Both the position numbers and the translations under genes were made by a program. DNA of 59,652 nucleotides from a bacterium (GTDB lineage: Bacteria > Bacillota > Clostridia > Lachnospirales > Lachnospiraceae). Location of the stretch: assembly GCA_030535455.1 (NCBI GenBank), contig JAUNJY010000011.1:1-59652 (forward strand). Direction: 5' to 3'. The first letter of the stretch is position 1; each line of letters begins with the position of its first letter. The notes beneath the pieces are model-generated. The model was not told the origin of the DNA, did no database searches, and saw nothing but the letters and a program-made list of their open reading frames with translations. Positions 1 to 16,326 of the stretch are shown piece after piece.

Positions 1-184
1 TGTGTGAACGATGTGAACTATGCGATCTGTGTGCAGCATATGCATCATCCCCATATAATAAAACACTCAGAACAACCACAACAGATCCTATAGCTAATAC
101 TTTTGACCTCGAAATATTTCCTTCTTCTTCTGTAATAAAGTCCTCTATATTTCTTTTTATCATTGGAAATAACTCTTTATCCAT
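1..184 (-). CDS. hxsA: HxsA, His-Xaa-Ser repeat precursor (3' end cut by window edge)
   Basis: Predicted substrate of the HxsB/HxsC radical-SAM enzymes. Reading minus from ATG at 184-182 gives 61 residues before the edge: a charged N-terminus (MDKELFPMIKRNIEDF), an acidic ITEEEG stretch, a hydrophobic segment (about 29-44), then DDAYAA followed at once by HRSHSSHRSH, an in-register His-x-Ser repeat. The start is fixed by a GAGGAG sequence overlapping the stop of the MORN gene, 5 nt between genes. The His/Ser repeat is the hallmark of HxsA. Two processing sites are conceivable: a signal-peptidase-like AYA-A just before the repeats, or after Gly22 by the operon's A24-type peptidase. The C-terminus and repeat number are not visible. 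Identity is secure because hxsB, hxsC and hxsD sit in the same operon; the chemical modification of Hxs peptides is not known to me. Confidence 0.85.
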   Translation of the reverse strand, partial: MDKELFPMIKRNIEDFITEEEGNISRSKVLAIGSVVVVLSVLLYGDDAYAAHRSHSSHRSH

Positions 185-189
185 GCTAC

Positions 190-1329
190 CTACTCCTCTA
201 AACTTGTAATTTTAGTACATTTTCCATTCTTCCATGTACCTTCATAAATAGAACCATTCTTTGTTACATATTTGGCACTTCCATTTAATTTGCCCTTTTC
301 CCAGGTTCCATCATAATATGAGCCATCTTTAAACGTATATACACCCTCTCCATCATATGTATCATACTCCCAATCGCCTACATATTTATCCCCATTCTTG
401 AATACCATAGTGCCTGTTCCAAACTTCTTATCATTATTAATTTCTCCGGTGTACACATCTCCATTACTGTAAGTTATTTCTACCTCTCCATTAAGAGCAT
501 CTTGGCTCCAAGTCCCTTTTATAATAGTTCCTTTTTTATGATAATAAATACCTGCTCCTGAACGTTCATTTTGTTCAAAACTCCCAGTAAAATAATCTCC
601 ATCAGAATAAGTTAATACCCCCGTACCATCTGGAAATCCATCTTTAAATTGTCCTTTATACTTATTACCATTTGAATAAGAGATTTCGCCATCTCCCGAA
701 GCTGCTCCCCCTTCAAATGTTCCTTTATAAATATCCCCACACGTATATTCTAAAGTTCCTTTTCCTTCTGGAACCCCATTAGTAAATACACCTTTATACT
801 TGTTACCATTTGAATAACTTAATTTCCCATTTCCGTTAGCTACGCCCTCTTTAAACGTACCTGTATAAATATCCCCAGACTCATATTGTAAAGTTCCTTC
901 TCCTTCTTCAATATAGTCATGTGTAAGTGGTCCTACATAAGTTTTTTTTCCTAATCCATCACTATAATGAATTACTGCATTCCCTGACATTTCACCACTT
1001 ATTATAGTTCCACTTATTTTTCTATCACTAATCAGTGCTTCTTCTGCAATACCATCTATAAAAACTACTTTTTCATCTACTAATTTATAGGAGCCCTTAT
1101 AGCTTCCAGCTGTATTATAATGAATTTCTCCTATATACTGAGAATTCCCATCTACAGTCATACCTTCATAATTATAATTATCTTCATAACACTTAACATA
1201 TTTTTGATAGGTTGTACGTTTTTTCGCTTCACTTATCTTTATATTATTAGTAGAAGAGCAACCCTGAACCCAAATACATCCTAAAAATATTACTAAAAAC
1301 GCAACTATCTTACTATTAATTCGTTTCAT
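190..1329 (-). CDS. MORN-repeat lipoprotein of the Hxs operon
   Basis: 379 residues. The N-terminus MKRINSKIVAFLVIFLGCIW followed by VQGCSS is a lipoprotein signal with lipidated Cys. The rest is about ten MORN repeats of the form 'YxGxxxxGxxxGxGxxxYxxGxx' (for example GDIYTGTFKEG, NKYKGVFTNG, DKYVGDWEYD), which fold as an elongated beta sheet. An ATG 24 nt upstream (1353) would also be in frame, but AAAGGAG lies 6 nt before ATG 1329, so 1329 is chosen. The gene starts 11 nt after hxsB and ends 5 nt before hxsA, so it is co-transcribed with the maturases and precursor. MORN proteins usually act as scaffolds or membrane-contact modules. Here it may anchor or display the exported HxsA product on the outer face of the membrane (inference). 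MORN proteins are not part of the Hxs gene set as I know it. Confidence 0.85.
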   Translation of the reverse strand: MKRINSKIVAFLVIFLGCIWVQGCSSTNNIKISEAKKRTTYQKYVKCYEDNYNYEGMTVDGNSQYIGEIHYNTAGSYKGSYKLVDEKVVFIDGIAEEALISDRKISGTIISGEMSGNAVIHYSDGLGKKTYVGPLTHDYIEEGEGTLQYESGDIYTGTFKEGVANGNGKLSYSNGNKYKGVFTNGVPEGKGTLEYTCGDIYKGTFEGGAASGDGEISYSNGNKYKGQFKDGFPDGTGVLTYSDGDYFTGSFEQNERSGAGIYYHKKGTIIKGTWSQDALNGEVEITYSNGDVYTGEINNDKKFGTGTMVFKNGDKYVGDWEYDTYDGEGVYTFKDGSYYDGTWEKGKLNGSAKYVTKNGSIYEGTWKNGKCTKITSLEE

Positions 1330-1340
1330 TTTTTCTCCTT

Positions 1341-2726
1341 TTAGTACACCCAATCATACAATACTTTCATTGTTGATTCATCATTTTCTAAAATAAGTTC
1401 AAATAATATATCTAAAATACCTTGATAAACTCTGCATCTAAAATCTTCTTTTAGATCTGGGAATATTGTTCCATACAATGCATAACTGATAACAGGACAG
1501 GTACCACAATATGGACTGTATACACACGTACTGCAATTTTTATGATTTTCTAAACATGAACTAACTGCAACCGTCTTACAAACAGGACTTTTCATTAATT
1601 CTTTATACGTAGATTTATATACGTTACCTAAGCAAAAACTTTTATCCCCCATCTCACCAAGCATTCTTCCTTCATCGCATGTATAAACATCACCATTATA
1701 ATAATAAGCTAACTGACCAATCGCACCACCACAAGGTGATCTCAGTTCCATATAATTTATTGATTCATATTGTAATATTTTTGATAAGAAAATAGATGCA
1801 TGACGCTCACTTATAAATGTACCGTTTTTACAAAGCTCAATCATATATAGTAATGAATTCTTATAAAATTCCAAAAACTCTTCTGAAGTATAACCCACAG
1901 TATCCCAGTTTTCAGCTGCATACCCTAATCTAGTTAATGGACGTATAAAAAGACTATCTAACCCGTGACTAACATAAGCATCTACTAATTCCTTATAGTT
2001 ATTTAACGTATACTTCGTTGTAGTCTGAATAGCTCCTATCTCTAATTTGCTATCTTTAACTTGCTGAAACTGTTTTTCCCATTTTTCAAATACATTTAAT
2101 TTTCCGGCAGGTCTATTTCTATTATGAAGACACTCATCTCCATCCAATGATGTACTTATACTCACATTATTCTTCACAAAAAACTCAAGCATTTCTTCTG
2201 TAAGTAATAATAAGTTTGAAACAAGAACAAACTCTACATTCTTTTCTACATTAACTTCTTTAGTGTATTCAACAATATATTTAATTGTTTCAAAATTTAA
2301 TAATGGCTCTCCACCCTGAAATTCAAATGTTAGATATTTACCTGGGGCACATAATGCCAAATCAACCGCTCTCTTTGCAGTTTCATTATCCATTTTTTCT
2401 AGTTTTTCATTATTTGCAGATGCCTGACAATAGATACAATGTTGATTACAATTTTTTGTTACAACAAATATATGAAGAGATGTTCCCTGAAATAAATATC
2501 GTTTATATTCTCTAAGCTCACTTCCAGCTTTTAAAGAAAATATCTCCTTGGGTTCCTTATAAACAAAGTACTTTTCTGTCAACTCCGTATATTTTTCTAA
2601 TGGTAATTTACTTTCATTTTCATTTAATAACTGAAACTCTTCATCAGATAAAAATACAGATCTTCCCAAATCATTTGTAATTAAATAACTGTCATTTATT
2701 TTTTTATAATTATAATAATTTTTCAT
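1341..2726 (-). CDS. hxsB: HxsB radical SAM maturase (SPASM type)
   Basis: 461 residues. The radical-SAM motif CNQHCIYC (Cys93/97/100) binds the catalytic 4Fe-4S cluster and S-adenosylmethionine. EFQGGEPLLN and ISTSLDGDECLHNRNRP are typical of peptide-modifying maturases. The C-terminal third is Cys-rich (CGGAIGQLAYYYNGDVYTCD, then further Cys pairs up to CGTCP), as in SPASM domains with auxiliary Fe-S clusters. Length, the opening 'YLITNDLGRSVFLSDEEF' and the segment SLHIFVVTKNCNQHC match the HxsB family. The start codon follows the hxsC stop directly (TAAATG), so translation is probably coupled. Expected role: cytoplasmic modification of HxsA together with HxsC. The reaction is not known. 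Confidence 0.9.
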   Translation of the reverse strand: MKNYYNYKKINDSYLITNDLGRSVFLSDEEFQLLNENESKLPLEKYTELTEKYFVYKEPKEIFSLKAGSELREYKRYLFQGTSLHIFVVTKNCNQHCIYCQASANNEKLEKMDNETAKRAVDLALCAPGKYLTFEFQGGEPLLNFETIKYIVEYTKEVNVEKNVEFVLVSNLLLLTEEMLEFFVKNNVSISTSLDGDECLHNRNRPAGKLNVFEKWEKQFQQVKDSKLEIGAIQTTTKYTLNNYKELVDAYVSHGLDSLFIRPLTRLGYAAENWDTVGYTSEEFLEFYKNSLLYMIELCKNGTFISERHASIFLSKILQYESINYMELRSPCGGAIGQLAYYYNGDVYTCDEGRMLGEMGDKSFCLGNVYKSTYKELMKSPVCKTVAVSSCLENHKNCSTCVYSPYCGTCPVISYALYGTIFPDLKEDFRCRVYQGILDILFELILENDESTMKVLYDWVY

Positions 2727-3770
2727 TTATTCATTCCTTCTAAAAGGCTTAACCTTAAATTCTGTATTTGCAATAGTCGATGCAAAAAAACCACCACAGT
2801 AACTTTTCAATTCACATGCATCGCAAGCTTCTTGATAACGTATTTTACTTGGTGTAATACTTTTTCTATAGCACGCCCAGTACTTTTTACCAATTGCACA
2901 CAATGGGAAATTATATAATCTTGTTTCTATACCATTGCGAATCGCTTTCTCAATTGTTTGTTCTAAGACAGGCTTCAATTCTTCATATTCAATCCATACC
3001 TTATCTTTATTCTTAAAAGCATTTCCCATTACTTCCATTCCCATAATATTAACATAATGTACAAAAGGAAATTCCAAAGAGATAAAATCAATTAACTCGC
3101 TCAACTGATATGCATTTAATTTACTAACAACTATCCTTATTCCAACCTCTATTCCCACGTTATGTAGGTTTTTAATTCCTTTAATTGTCTGTTTAAAGCT
3201 TCCAATATCACCTGAAATTAGATCATGTCTGGCTTCCCAATGACTATGCATTGGAATTTCAATTCGCATTGATTTATTATTAAATTGTGAGAAGTGCTCA
3301 GTATAAGTTTTATCTGCAAAACTTCGTCCATTCGATAATGCTAGTAATTCTACATCCGGATATTTTTCAAATATTTGTGCTAATAATTCCGGGAACATTT
3401 CTTTCAATAAAGTTGGTTCTCCTCCTGTGACATCAACTGAATAAATATTTTGAGGAAATAATTTAATTCTTTCAACTAATCCCTGATATGTTATTGTATT
3501 ATGAATACGCCTTACATTTTCTGAATCAGGGCACATAATACAATTTGAATTGCACTGATTAGTGACAAATAATGTCATATGAGTATTGTCACCTTTATGA
3601 ATAATCCTAATTTCTCCATCTCTTGGATAAAATATGTCATCTATATCAAGAAGATTATCGTTATCTGAAATAGTCTGAACGTTCCCGTCCATATTAATAA
3701 TTTCTACATTCTCATTTTCTTTATTATTTACTCTATATAAACTTCCTTTTAGTTCTGTAATATCTACCAT
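2727..3770 (-). CDS. hxsC: HxsC radical SAM maturase
   Basis: 347 residues. Radical-SAM motif CNSNCIMC at Cys73/77/80, preceded by the family-like MTLFVTNQ; then DVTGGEPTLL, LLALSNGRSFAD, IPMHSHWEARHD, YVNIMGMEVMGNAFKN and a C-terminal Cys set ACDACELKSYCGGFFAS. These match HxsC, the partner of HxsB in His-Xaa-Ser systems; HxsC lacks the long SPASM tail. The start ATG overlaps the 3' end of the A24 peptidase gene by 7 nt, with GGGAGG just upstream, so the two are translationally coupled. Function is inferred: modification of the HxsA repeat region in the cytoplasm before export. Confidence 0.9.
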   Translation of the reverse strand: MVDITELKGSLYRVNNKENENVEIINMDGNVQTISDNDNLLDIDDIFYPRDGEIRIIHKGDNTHMTLFVTNQCNSNCIMCPDSENVRRIHNTITYQGLVERIKLFPQNIYSVDVTGGEPTLLKEMFPELLAQIFEKYPDVELLALSNGRSFADKTYTEHFSQFNNKSMRIEIPMHSHWEARHDLISGDIGSFKQTIKGIKNLHNVGIEVGIRIVVSKLNAYQLSELIDFISLEFPFVHYVNIMGMEVMGNAFKNKDKVWIEYEELKPVLEQTIEKAIRNGIETRLYNFPLCAIGKKYWACYRKSITPSKIRYQEACDACELKSYCGGFFASTIANTEFKVKPFRRNE

Positions 3771-4798
3771 ACTACCTCCCGTATAATGTAAAAAATCAAT
3801 CCTAATAAAAAGAAAATAGCAAAGGGGAGATGCTCAACAATTATAACCTTACTCTCACCATACTTTGATTTTTCCCATCGTCTTATTGCCTCTGCTTCTT
3901 CATCACTTATACGGCTTTTTGTTGTTTCATCAGTGTATGTTGGAAGCCCTTTCACACGCGATTTATTAAACATTAATATCATGCCATAAGAAAGTATCAT
4001 TCCTTTTTTCACACTACTAGTACATACCTCTTTATAGTTAAATACTCCCGCAACACTTCGAATTAATATAGACGAAAATACAATGATAATAGAAAACAAA
4101 AGTTGTCTAATGTTAATGATTGTAGTATTACTATAAGAATATAAAATACTTATATGAAGACATAGGCATACGAATGAAATAATCTTTTTTTTCTTCAACG
4201 AAATAGTTGCAATATAGCTTGCAAGTATTAAACCAATAATCATAAAAAATATTCTGTTATACATATAATATAGACTAAAAATATGTGCACATATATTATA
4301 AAATATATATACAATAAAAGAATTAAGTAGTATCTCGATAATATTTTTATCTTTCAATATATCCCCATCTTTTTTCTTGATTTTTAATTTATTTGGATTC
4401 AGTATAAACTTCACTAGGGTCTCTAGTAATACATATACATATGCTATTAAAAAAATATAAACAAAAATTCTCATACTTGGAAATAACTCATACTCTAACT
4501 TACTATATCTTGCGTAAGGGAAAATAATAGTTATAACGATCCATAACTTACTATCTCCAGCACCCCATATCTTCTGTACAAAAAAAACATATCCAATAAA
4601 AATAACAATTGCTAAATTAATAATATATTGAACAAATAATTCACTATTCTGGATGTAGTAACTCACCACAAGTACACCACTTATTAAAAGAAAAAAAGAT
4701 AATACTTTATTAAATACTTTACCATGTAATATATCTGTAATACCTGCAATACCGCATAAGAATACACATAGCATTATTAAACATATTTCTAATATCAT
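3764..4798 (-). CDS. A24-family prepilin-peptidase-like membrane aspartyl protease
   Basis: About 344 residues and very hydrophobic, with roughly eight membrane segments. The two aspartates of the TadV/CpaA/PilD (A24) family are present: GITDILHGKVFN near the N-terminus and WGAGDSKLW (GxGD) near residue 85. A long cytoplasmic-looking stretch (TYTDETTKSRISDEEAEAIR) precedes a last segment (LPFAIFFLLGLIFYII) that resembles the final prepilin-peptidase helix. It is longer than CpaA-type enzymes (about 170 residues), with an extra multi-helix middle. ATG 4798 forms a TAATG junction with the gene before; ATG 4807 is an alternative. No pilin, ATPase or assembly gene is nearby, so the likely substrate is HxsA, whose leader has an acidic stretch, a Gly and then a hydrophobic segment (inference). 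Confidence 0.75.
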   Translation of the reverse strand: MILEICLIMLCVFLCGIAGITDILHGKVFNKVLSFFLLISGVLVVSYYIQNSELFVQYIINLAIVIFIGYVFFVQKIWGAGDSKLWIVITIIFPYARYSKLEYELFPSMRIFVYIFLIAYVYVLLETLVKFILNPNKLKIKKKDGDILKDKNIIEILLNSFIVYIFYNICAHIFSLYYMYNRIFFMIIGLILASYIATISLKKKKIISFVCLCLHISILYSYSNTTIINIRQLLFSIIIVFSSILIRSVAGVFNYKEVCTSSVKKGMILSYGMILMFNKSRVKGLPTYTDETTKSRISDEEAEAIRRWEKSKYGESKVIIVEHLPFAIFFLLGLIFYIIREVVW

Positions 4799-5004
4799 TA
4801 TCTGCATCCCATTATACCAATCAGATAATTCATATACTCTTTCTTTATTAAATCTACTTCTGCTTTTTCATTTTTAACAAGAACAATATAGTATTTATCT
4901 GTTTCCTTTGTAATACACATATTAGCCACCTGATCATATGCTGCATTTGCTATTTCTAAAACATTTCTACTATATATCTCTTTATTTACTTTAAACTCAC
5001 TCAT
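4798..5004 (-). CDS. Second, short HxsD-like protein
   Basis: 68 residues beginning MSEFKVNKEIYSRNVLEIAN. It aligns by eye with the first part of HxsD next door: EFKVNKEIYSRNVLEIA against MKIKVNENVFSKENVIKA, then a central YYIVLV strand against YFIISI, then EYMNYLI against EFRNELV. It lacks the C-terminal extension of HxsD. The ATG overlaps the hxsD stop (ATGAGTGA), and its own stop overlaps the next start, so it is tightly coupled. It may be a degenerate HxsD paralogue acting as a peptide-binding or chaperone partner for one of the two maturases (inference). An upstream in-frame ATG at 5031 lies inside hxsD and is less likely. Confidence 0.65.
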   Translation of the reverse strand: MSEFKVNKEIYSRNVLEIANAAYDQVANMCITKETDKYYIVLVKNEKAEVDLIKKEYMNYLIGIMGCR

Positions 5005-5353
5005 GCTCAAACCAATCCCTTGCAATATCATTTATTGAGAACTCTTTTGTTTCTTCTTCACTTATTTCATCCTCTGTTTCCTCAAAATACGTTGAGTATA
5101 AAGCTCTTGTTAATATGAGCTCTCGAACATTACTTGTTTCTTTAGAAATCTTTTCTCTAACATTCTGATTAACTAGTTCATTTCTAAATTCAGACTCAAT
5201 ACTTATATTGTTATTTTTTTCTTTTGCTGAGATGCTAATAATAAAATATTCGTTTTCTTTATCAATTTCTATGTAATAATCATCGATAAACTCAAAGCTA
5301 GCTTTTATTACATTCTCTTTACTAAATACATTTTCATTTACTTTTATCTTCAT
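4997..5353 (-). CDS. hxsD: HxsD, His-Xaa-Ser system small protein
   Basis: 118 residues. The core EFRNELVNQNVREKI followed by VRELILTRALYS matches the conserved HxsD signature (a F-x-NEL-x-x-Q-x-x-R block, then a VREL helix). The N-terminal half is a small alternating beta/charged region (YYIEIDKENEYFIISISAKE). The tail is acidic (EETEDEISEEETKE). HxsD is always found with HxsB/HxsC and is thought to be a small accessory protein, possibly binding the precursor; no biochemistry is known to me. This is the first gene of the operon: AAGGAA precedes ATG 5353 and a strong promoter lies about 45 nt upstream. Confidence 0.85.
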   Translation of the reverse strand: MKIKVNENVFSKENVIKASFEFIDDYYIEIDKENEYFIISISAKEKNNNISIESEFRNELVNQNVREKISKETSNVRELILTRALYSTYFEETEDEISEEETKEFSINDIARDWFEHE

Positions 5354-5395
5354 TTTAATTTCCTTATATATACTTATTTTGCACCATAAATATTA

Positions 5396-5423
5396 ATTAT
5401 AAAGCAGAATAGGAATAAGTCAA
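5396..5423 (-). promoter_or_regulatory. Sigma-A promoter of the hxs operon
   Basis: On the minus strand TTGACT (5423-5418), a 16-bp spacer, then a perfect TATAAT (5401-5396), ending about 42 bp before hxsD. No other promoter of similar quality is seen inside the tightly packed operon. Confidence 0.8.
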
Positions 5424-5504: not shown

Positions 5505-5555
5505 CTCTAAATATTGCTCTAACATTTTATATTCATCAAAAAGCTAGAGCAATAC
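5505..5555. repeat. Inverted/direct repeat of TGCTCTA upstream of hxs promoter
   Basis: ATTGCTCTA (5515-5523) and its inverse TAGAGCAAT (5547-5555) are separated by 23 bp; a further TGCTCTA sits at 5505-5511. The set lies about 80-130 bp upstream of the hxs promoter and just downstream of the Nudix gene. There is no T-run, so it does not look like a terminator. It could be an operator for an unknown regulator (inference). Confidence 0.4.
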
Positions 5556-14366: not shown

Positions 14367-16253
14367 CTACTGCAATAACTGCATAATACCATTTTCCTGT
14401 TTGTTTGCCTGGGAAAGCATTGCTTGTGTTGCCTGTATTAATATACTGCTGGTTGAGTATTTCACCATCTCTCGCGCCATATCCGCATCACGTATCCTGC
14501 TCTCTGCTGTGGACGTATTTTCTGAAGATATGGAGGCAATTGCATGTGCGTGTTCCAATCGGTTCTCAAATGCTCCAAAAGTACTTCGTTGGGAAAGTAC
14601 TTTCTTATTTGCCTCATCAATACTTTGGATTGCTGTCTGACTGTCCTCTTGCGTATCAATTTTCATTTCTTCAATCCCTAGCTGAAATAAATCAAATGCT
14701 TTATAAGATACTTCAATAGACTGGCCACTGTTGGCACCTGATTGTATCTGCAATCGATTAGTAGCTTCAAAAATAGGAGAATCAAACTCCACCTTTTTAA
14801 TACTTCCCATGCTGCTATATGTTGAAGAGGAGGCCTCACTGGTAGAGGGATTACCCGCATAAATATCTAATCCATCTAAAGAACTTAACTTTTTCATAAC
14901 CGTATCCACTGTATCAGTTTCAGTCACGTGGATTTTCATAGTCAAATTTCCAATGGAAGTATATTTACTGCCACCCACATAATATTCACCACTATCTGGC
15001 GTAAGGGCAAAGTTCATTACAATATAGCCTCCGTTCTGGGTATCATCTACTAAATTAACGCCCTTTGAATTATTAAGTGCATCGAGTACAGAACTGATGC
15101 TTCCATTGTTTGGTTCTGGATAAAATGACTTTGCATAATCGTATCCATAAGAACTGGTATACCACCATTTCTGATCTGGATCCTTCCAATCACTGTAGTA
15201 ATAGGCACTTTCAGATTTAGCTGTAATGCCGCCTACTCCCTGCATGTCAAACTTGAAAATCCATTGTTCTGAGGATGCAGTAGTGGAAGTTGGATCATTC
15301 ACCAAATTGCTAATACTGCTTGGTTCAATAAACTTCGTATCATACGTCTCAAAGTCCTTCCCTGAAGCCAGCAGTGCACTATAATTAAAACTTGTAGAAA
15401 ATGAAATATCTGAATTATCTATCCCTGTATCAAAGGATGGCTTTGCTGTCTCACTGCAATATTCATAACAAGAAACAGTACAGCCATTGATTGAATCAAT
15501 GACATCATCTAATGATGCATAGTCTGCCACAGAATATGTATAGGTAAAGTCAATTCCTTGTAATTCTGGATGCATTGTCTTATCAACATAATCTGATAAT
15601 TTAAATGAATGTGTATTATGTAAGTTGTCTGGCCATCCAATTACAGATGACGTATATGCGGTTCCATTATATCCCGTCCATGAAACGGTAATTCCCTCTT
15701 CTGTGGCCAAAAGGTCATATTTACCATTGGCTGGGACAGCGAATTTATTTGTATTTGTAAGTGTGCCACTATAATAAGGCCTGTCAGATGTAACTGCCGT
15801 GACCTTTTCTGTACCAATTTGTGTTCGATCCGTGGAATTTAAATCCCATATCTTTCTTCCATTGAATTCAGTGGATCGAAAGATCGATGTAACTTCCTGT
15901 TTTAATGCTACCACTTCTTCATTTAGTGCCCGACGGTCATCGTTCGTATTAGTATCATTGGCCGACTGCACTGCCAGCTCTCGCATCCGATTAAAAATGG
16001 AATTCACTTCATTTAGTGCGCCATCTGCCACTTCACAATAGCTAATTCCATCCATAATATTCTTCTTTGCCCTGTCAAGGCCACGAATTTGAGCACGCAT
16101 CTTATGAGAGATGCTTAATCCTGCTGCATCATCTGCAGCCATATTAATTCGATAACCGGACGAAAGATTTCTTGTTGTCTTCCCTAATTTAACTGTTTCC
16201 CTTTTTAAATGGCTATTTGCAAATTGTGCAACCATATTATGTTGTATAACCAC
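14367..16253 (-). CDS. Flagellin with a large variable central domain
   Basis: 628 residues. The conserved N-terminal D0/D1 helices (VIQHNMVAQFANSHLKRETV, LSSGYRINMAADDAAGLSIS) and C-terminal helices (FGAFENRLEHAHAIASISSE, RDADMAREMVKY, SILIQATQAMLSQANKQENG) flank a ~330-residue variable region rich in Ser/Thr/Tyr (about 150-490) that would form the exposed surface of the filament. This is longer than the common 270-500-residue flagellins. A GTG start at 16253 is chosen: AAAGGAG lies 6 nt upstream, and the -10 box of a promoter occupies the upstream in-frame ATG at 16298. No other flagellar genes are in the window. The product is exported by the flagellar type III system. Confidence 0.92.
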   Translation of the reverse strand: MVIQHNMVAQFANSHLKRETVKLGKTTRNLSSGYRINMAADDAAGLSISHKMRAQIRGLDRAKKNIMDGISYCEVADGALNEVNSIFNRMRELAVQSANDTNTNDDRRALNEEVVALKQEVTSIFRSTEFNGRKIWDLNSTDRTQIGTEKVTAVTSDRPYYSGTLTNTNKFAVPANGKYDLLATEEGITVSWTGYNGTAYTSSVIGWPDNLHNTHSFKLSDYVDKTMHPELQGIDFTYTYSVADYASLDDVIDSINGCTVSCYEYCSETAKPSFDTGIDNSDISFSTSFNYSALLASGKDFETYDTKFIEPSSISNLVNDPTSTTASSEQWIFKFDMQGVGGITAKSESAYYYSDWKDPDQKWWYTSSYGYDYAKSFYPEPNNGSISSVLDALNNSKGVNLVDDTQNGGYIVMNFALTPDSGEYYVGGSKYTSIGNLTMKIHVTETDTVDTVMKKLSSLDGLDIYAGNPSTSEASSSTYSSMGSIKKVEFDSPIFEATNRLQIQSGANSGQSIEVSYKAFDLFQLGIEEMKIDTQEDSQTAIQSIDEANKKVLSQRSTFGAFENRLEHAHAIASISSENTSTAESRIRDADMAREMVKYSTSSILIQATQAMLSQANKQENGIMQLLQ

Positions 16254-16297
16254 TTTTTTCTCCTTTGTCTCAATCGTATAAAATTTGTGTCGTTGCA

Positions 16298-16326
16298 ATT
16301 ATAGCAATTCCCCTACTTTGATACAA
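16298..16326 (-). promoter_or_regulatory. Sigma-A-like promoter of flagellin
   Basis: Minus strand TTGTAT (16326-16321), 17-bp spacer, TATAAT (16303-16298), 45 bp before the GTG start. No sigma-D (sigma-28) type TAAA/GCCGATAA motif was found, which is unusual for a flagellin gene. Confidence 0.65.

Follow-up and report, generated by a model that had tools for sequence, protein, structure and literature searches.

The His-Xaa-Ser operon at the contig end

The window analysed here is the stretch of 59,652 nucleotides formed by bases 1–59652 of contig C113 (82,767 bases), part of a genome of 4.35 Mb in 126 contigs that is 93.6% complete and 7.7% contaminated. At its start (1–5423, minus strand) lies a His-Xaa-Ser (Hxs) operon of seven codirectional genes, running from 5353 down to 2 with overlaps or gaps of at most 11 nt in the order hxsD, HxsD-like, A24 peptidase, hxsC, hxsB, MORN lipoprotein and hxsA3. 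The operon is a well-preserved member of the His-Xaa-Ser HxsA3 type named by NCBI, within the Hxs radical SAM system to which the NCBIfam models TIGR03976–TIGR03979 belong. This type is itself already known; the new part is the prepilin-like leader of HxsA and the A24 peptidase associated with it. Judging from sequence, we propose, at a probability slightly above one half (about 0.53), that this is an HxsA3-type system whose modified His/Ser-rich pre-protein starts with a prepilin-like leader (class III-type) and is served by an A24 peptidase of its own. The gene set would probably modify a His/Ser-rich protein by two radical enzymes and then trim and export it via a pilus-resembling leader and a membrane protease. 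The features are as follows.

4997..5353, minus strand: hxsD (TIGR03976, 68.5 bits; NCBIfam cut-off 50)
4798..5004, minus strand: HxsD-like gene (NF038315, 42.8 bits; cut-off 41)
3764..4807, minus strand: hxs-type A24 (GxGD) membrane peptidase with a C-terminal KKGMIL...PFA region
2727..3770, minus strand: hxsC, radical S-adenosylmethionine (SAM) maturase (TIGR03977, 304.5 bits; cut-off 267.9)
1341..2726, minus strand: hxsB, radical SAM/SPASM maturase (TIGR03978, 514.9 bits; cut-off 370)
190..1329, minus strand: MORN-repeat lipoprotein of 379 residues, lipobox VQGC read from the sequence (PF02493, 118.8 bits; cut-off 22.5)
2..184, minus strand: hxsA3, 5' part, 61 residues (NF038309, 93.4 bits; cut-off 65)
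119..139, minus strand: FITEEEG (F16–G22), proposed A24 cut after Gly22, from alignments, column counts and comparison with Flp1-like pilins
5396..5423, minus strand: promoter-like TTGACT-16-TATAAT, best of 37 matches, a count not above chance

An earlier sequence-only reading had described these seven genes as one Hxs operon, and profile searches confirm it: all genes lie on one strand, HxsB, HxsC, HxsD, the HxsD-like protein and HxsA3 score above the curated NCBIfam cut-offs, and the MORN protein scores above that of Pfam. Of the duplicated hxsD it had claimed, the second gene is real but belongs to the known HxsD-like family NF038315, which is optional (22 of the 34 loci whose upstream sequence could be read have it). 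The AT-richness it had judged by eye is genuine, because 98 sliding stretches of 5,423 bases taken from the remainder all have a higher GC content (29.8% in 1–5423 versus 37.2% elsewhere). The single promoter, however, was not borne out: the best candidate agrees with the consensus at 11 of 12 positions, yet 37 such matches were seen against 36.7 expected by chance.

A prepilin-like leader on HxsA and an associated A24 peptidase

HxsA of the window consists of a leader (M1–G22) ending in FITEEEG, a membrane helix, A48-Y49-A50 and then AHRSHSSHRSH, at which point the contig ends. Since base 1 of the contig is also where the window starts, the protein is cut after 61 residues, which matches the earlier view of an hxsA running off at position 1; a family search of the same genome for a second copy or the remainder of the gene returned the window copy alone. 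HRSHSSHRSH is the only part of the His-Xaa-Ser repeat visible here, and full repeats are seen in the HxsA of relatives. In these, a hydrophilic leader mostly ending in F-(L/I)-x-(E/D)-E-E-G is followed by N-I-(S/T/P)-R-x-K, a membrane helix and, between the helix and the first repeat, (V/A)-x-(A/G). Among 41 HxsA, counted on an anchor pattern that itself requires the Gly, Ile occupies −9 in 34, Asn +1 in 34, Ile +2 in 37, Arg +4 in 34 (Arg or Lys in 37) and Lys +6 in 34; the Gly is also invariant in an unanchored alignment of four HxsA. These loci contain 61 other open reading frames (ORFs) with an N-terminal helix, none of which carries the leader motif. The 22 residues up to G22 agree with the description of class III signal peptides in an excerpt of PMC4471445, namely a hydrophilic leader of 6–26 residues that ends in Gly and precedes a hydrophobic stretch. 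A signal-peptidase-like (A/V/I/M)-x-(A/G) site is present in 36 of 36 HxsA. Together with the A24 gene, these features agree with the earlier suggestion that HxsA is cleaved and exported.

The A24 protein has both catalytic Asp residues, D25 and, in the GxGD motif, D85, and both are retained in all 38 covering rows of the alignment of hxs-type A24 proteins. By comparison with FlaK (PDB 3s0x), the archaeal preflagellin peptidase, it has a FlaK-like fold; it differs from FlaK in being bacterial, longer and linked to radical SAM genes, with HxsA as its putative substrate. The hxs type has an extra long C-terminal region. When the hxs-A24 profile hidden Markov model (HMM) was run on the same genome, the A24 of a tad locus scored 34 bits, and two other A24 proteins among the matches listed scored 7 and 4.5.

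Survey of related hxs loci

A scan with HxsB gave 56 loci (L015–L070), which with the window and L011–L013 made 60 loci annotated with purpose-built HMMs. L012 and L038 are the same locus, as are L013 and L046; with L012 and L013 dropped, 38 loci of Bacillota and Actinomycetota remained. On iteration the HMMs for HxsB and HxsC merged, with 157 hits each, and the radical SAM genes were distinguished by order and length. The A24 gene occurs in 36 of the 38 loci and HxsA was detected in 35. Wherever both sides could be read, A24 stands behind hxsD or the HxsD-like gene and ahead of the two radical SAM genes. Two gene orders were found, hxsD-(D-like)-A24-hxsC-hxsB-(MORN)-hxsA in 22 loci and MORN-hxsA-hxsD-(D-like)-A24-hxsC-hxsB in 13, and the MORN gene, which directly precedes hxsA in 29 of 35 loci, travels with hxsA between them. 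With A24 in 36/38 loci and MORN in 29/35 of those with detected HxsA, the two genes stand as conserved parts; their absence from related hxs loci, which the sequence-only reading had named as a refutation, is not what is seen. A24 proteins of the same kind, sometimes 10–28 kb away, occur in Spirochaetota, Elusimicrobiota, Gracilibacteria and two further genomes.

Two candidates were rejected: an apparent A24-HxsC fusion in L032 is artefactual, arising from a stretch of N in the contig, and the A24 beside hxsD in L049 (Parcubacteria) is PilD-like, adjoins pilus genes and was not counted. As side observations, L072 (Elusimicrobiota), L133 and L135 (Gracilibacteria among these) have 9 or 10 ORFs matching the merged radical SAM HMM within 17–20 kb, near an hxs-type A24. 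A family of membrane proteins of about 340 residues lies directly or within about 2 kb downstream of hxsA in nine loci (L027, L031–L035, L039, L041 and L070); of two members scanned, one scored above and one just below the DUF5050 cut-off. In L011 (12448–16272), hxsA is followed by an XpaC-like gene (PF10112), then by a pair of TelA genes and a gene for a rhomboid protease; L013 (13061–14182) also has an XpaC-like gene after hxsA. L066 (10169–11059, Anaerostipes sp. MSJ-23) retains part of hxsB, with none of the other hxs genes detected, and is perhaps a decayed locus. In the window itself, a 643-residue ORF (14367–16298, minus strand) has an N-terminal start that is flagellin-like by eye.

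Proposed mechanism and alternatives

We propose the following hypothetical multistep pathway, in which (i) the N-terminus of HxsA stays in the cytosol while HxsB and HxsC, aided by HxsD and the HxsD-like protein, would modify the His-Xaa-Ser repeats, most likely by linking the ring of each His to the Ser at i+2 in a three-residue cyclophane; (ii) the A24 peptidase of the operon would cut after Gly22 and remove the FLxEEEG leader on the cytosolic face, as conservation and co-occurrence suggest; (iii) the helix would insert and the repeat domain cross the membrane, where a possible cut by signal peptidase I at (A/V)-x-(A/G) would release the repeat domain; and (iv) the MORN protein of the neighbouring gene, or HxsA's own C-terminal extension or anchor, would keep HxsA at the envelope after export. 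Display of HxsA at the membrane, as suggested in the sequence-only reading, is inferred, and the metal-binding polymer also raised there is hypothetical. As to the chemistry, HxsB belongs to the radical SAM proteins and has SPASM-type relatives, and the H-x-S spacing of the repeats is the i/i+2 geometry of three-residue cyclophanes. Such cyclophanes are made by SPASM radical SAM enzymes in the triceptides, for which the part of PMC11002830 available to us reports Phe-Ser and His-Ala crosslinks. Hxs shares the i/i+2 spacing with these systems and differs from them in its two radical SAM enzymes and its long repeat protein; a cyclophane product for HxsA may be envisaged by analogy.

The leader of HxsA resembles that of Tad pilins. 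Flp1-like pilins of the same bacterial family (24 rows from 30 loci, six of which gave no row; at least three rows that remain in the counts, L108, L122 and L123, are frames picked in error) show F-(L/W)-x-E-E-D-G with Glu at +5. A tad-like locus of the window's own genome contains an A24 and a Flp1-like pilin, whose leader reads FVNEEDG before VGIVE, next to FITEEEG before NISRSK in HxsA. The Flp1-like family PF16982 occurs in 146 of 150 genomes of the bacterial family, this one included, and is present instead of the Flp profile PF04964, which matched none of five genomes. HxsA might therefore be a minor pilin or pseudopilin entering the Tad-type filament of the same cell. We regard this as very unlikely, however, because HxsA has Asn, Gly, Ser, Lys, Asp or His at +5 in 41 of 41 cases where pilins have Glu5, bears charges at +4 and +6, and in its 61 residues matches no Pfam family, pilin families included; the signal-peptidase-like site directly after the helix would also remove the repeat domain, and none of the 11 neighbour families present in at least three loci (four of them Pfam-scanned) was recognised as a pilus gene. 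According to the accessible part of PMC4471445, prepilin peptidase depends critically on the final Gly of prepilins, processing does not require Glu5, and Glu5 mutants form no homopolymeric pili. As FLxEE(D/E)G is common to both proteins and the pilin Glu at +5 is missing from HxsA, which for that reason we do not file as a pilin, the motif appears to be shared on its peptidase side and not on its pilin-assembly side. Compared with Tad pilin processing by a TadV-type A24, the HxsA system thus has a similar leader ahead of a membrane helix, but lacks Glu5, adds a signal-peptidase-like site after the helix and a long C-terminal region on the A24, and has no filament machinery recognised in the hxs operon.

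A different role for the EEG leader would be that of a docking sequence for HxsD/HxsB, as in ribosomally synthesised and post-translationally modified peptides (RiPPs), with its Gly conserved for binding and the A24 peptidase cutting another substrate. The conserved columns from −9 to +6 reach past the A24 motif, and HxsD was detected in 52 of the 60 loci, both of which favour docking. The RiPP recognition element is a PqqD-like winged helix; the predicted structure of HxsD, beta-alpha-beta-beta plus a long helix, does not look winged-helix-like, and its fold matches were uninformative. Docking is nevertheless doubtful, since loci with HxsA of Sec, Tat or other type have HxsB, HxsC and mostly HxsD and show neither the EEG leader nor A24 in the stretches read, so that the motif tracks A24 and not HxsD/HxsB. 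Signal peptidase I could alternatively process HxsA alone, with the A24-like protein serving as a chaperone or export partner that is non-proteolytic toward HxsA. The site conserved in all 36 HxsA and the extra C-terminal region of A24 would fit this, whereas retention of both catalytic Asp residues in 38 of 38 rows makes it unlikely.

We therefore return to the A24 protein as leader peptidase of HxsA, a reading against which several observations weigh. The signal-peptidase-like site alone could account for trimming, Glu5 is missing, and the column counts presuppose the Gly. The PF01478 score of A24 is marginal (26.2 bits as a whole protein against a cut-off of 26.5, and 28.8 in the genome scan), and Foldseek alone found no PDB match for it better than E 0.9. 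Outside Bacillota, Actinomycetota and L044, A24 lies far from hxsB in runs of other radical SAM genes; in L044 and L059 it is on the opposite strand, and in L052, L057 and L058 the leader is present with no A24 in the stretch read. All tested EEG-leader genomes without an hxs-type A24 match contain some other A24, which means that a dedicated A24 is not proved necessary. An HxsA-leader profile run on five genomes at E values up to 10 recovered HxsA in all four that have it and no Flp pilin, for which reason the likeness to pilins is a short motif and homology is not shown. The cyclophane, finally, rests on spacing and on precedents in the part of PMC11002830 consulted.

MORN protein and HxsA length

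Complete HxsA proteins from loci without MORN have 178, 239, 244, 256 and 325 residues, and the 29 accompanied by MORN have 121–208; the window and L042, where HxsA is truncated, are left out. The difference is significant (Mann-Whitney p 0.0013), although the ranges overlap through L025 at 178 residues. L025 has a MORN match of 25 bits with the purpose-built HMM, yet Pfam finds none, and it was counted as MORN-less (30 became 29). In L012/L038, HxsA ends in a hydrophobic stretch and a basic tail, with a match to the Gram-positive anchor below threshold. This suggests that the same holding role would be served in trans by MORN and in cis by a C-terminal extension, which is a lead only because the cases are few, L028 and L061 are related, and L025 does not fit. 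In L022 (4681–7129, Clostridium beijerinckii HUN142), two MORN-hxsA pairs stand in tandem.

Distribution and transfer

With this genome counted in both cases, HxsA3 occurs in 4 of the 299 genomes of the bacterial family and in one of the four from the genus; it is missing from the three other genomes of the genus, two of which are at least 90% complete. In a complete congener, the NUDIX-helicase pair beside the operon is conserved, similarity ends at window base 5552, and past that point no hxs gene was recognised. The operon was either gained in the window genome or lost in the congener; the low GC, the absence of HxsA3 from the other genomes of the genus and the hxs-free congener locus agree with the horizontal transfer suggested earlier. 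A plasmid origin was rejected, as even the best-matching place of every one of 359 plasmid records is less than 60% identical. HxsB relatives on these records come from Klebsiella in 316 cases, and 285 of the 359 are predicted conjugative. Unlike the window, the Hxs loci on plasmids of Aeromonas, Nostoc and Acidiphilium (n = 3) have HxsB, HxsC and HxsA or HxsA2 without A24 or MORN; HxsD is annotated in two of the three, and HxsA looks Sec-type. A phage origin was likewise rejected: two phage records match, one of which, L132 (MT837156), is an unannotated 7.6-kb faecal scaffold labelled Bacteriophage sp. that has Bacillota-type hxsB, A24, MORN and HxsA and is probably a bacterial fragment.

Implications for the Hxs family

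In the literature searched, which lacks most subscription journals, no report was found on the Hxs product, on a link of a prepilin-like leader and A24 with Hxs, or on radical SAM enzymes, prepilin peptidase and RiPPs together. In the parts of the sources available, HxsB/HxsC are mentioned in passing and the original description is attributed to Haft and Basu (PMC9062424), hxs genes are listed on a genomic island (PMC8446631), and His-Xaa-Ser (PMC6537148) and HxsD (PMC10686908) have single mentions. A term search of a 2023 review on the proteases that remove RiPP leaders (PMC10885120) gave no occurrence of prepilin, A24, aspartyl, aspartic, pilin or signal peptidase.

A broader picture, which we offer as a tentative possibility, is that an ancient, dedicated A24 subfamily with a FlaK-like fold acts as leader peptidase of modified His/Ser-rich proteins and that several phyla release cross-linked His-rich fibres at the cell surface or tether them there, MORN proteins and C-terminal extensions being interchangeable as their holders; radical SAM modification would thereby be joined to prepilin-type export. 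If A24 is the leader peptidase, the cut site, the enzyme and the export route become testable, and the EEG leader with the hxs-type A24 would be a marker that sorts Hxs systems into export classes. The link between A24 and the leader would thus make the Hxs family directly testable.

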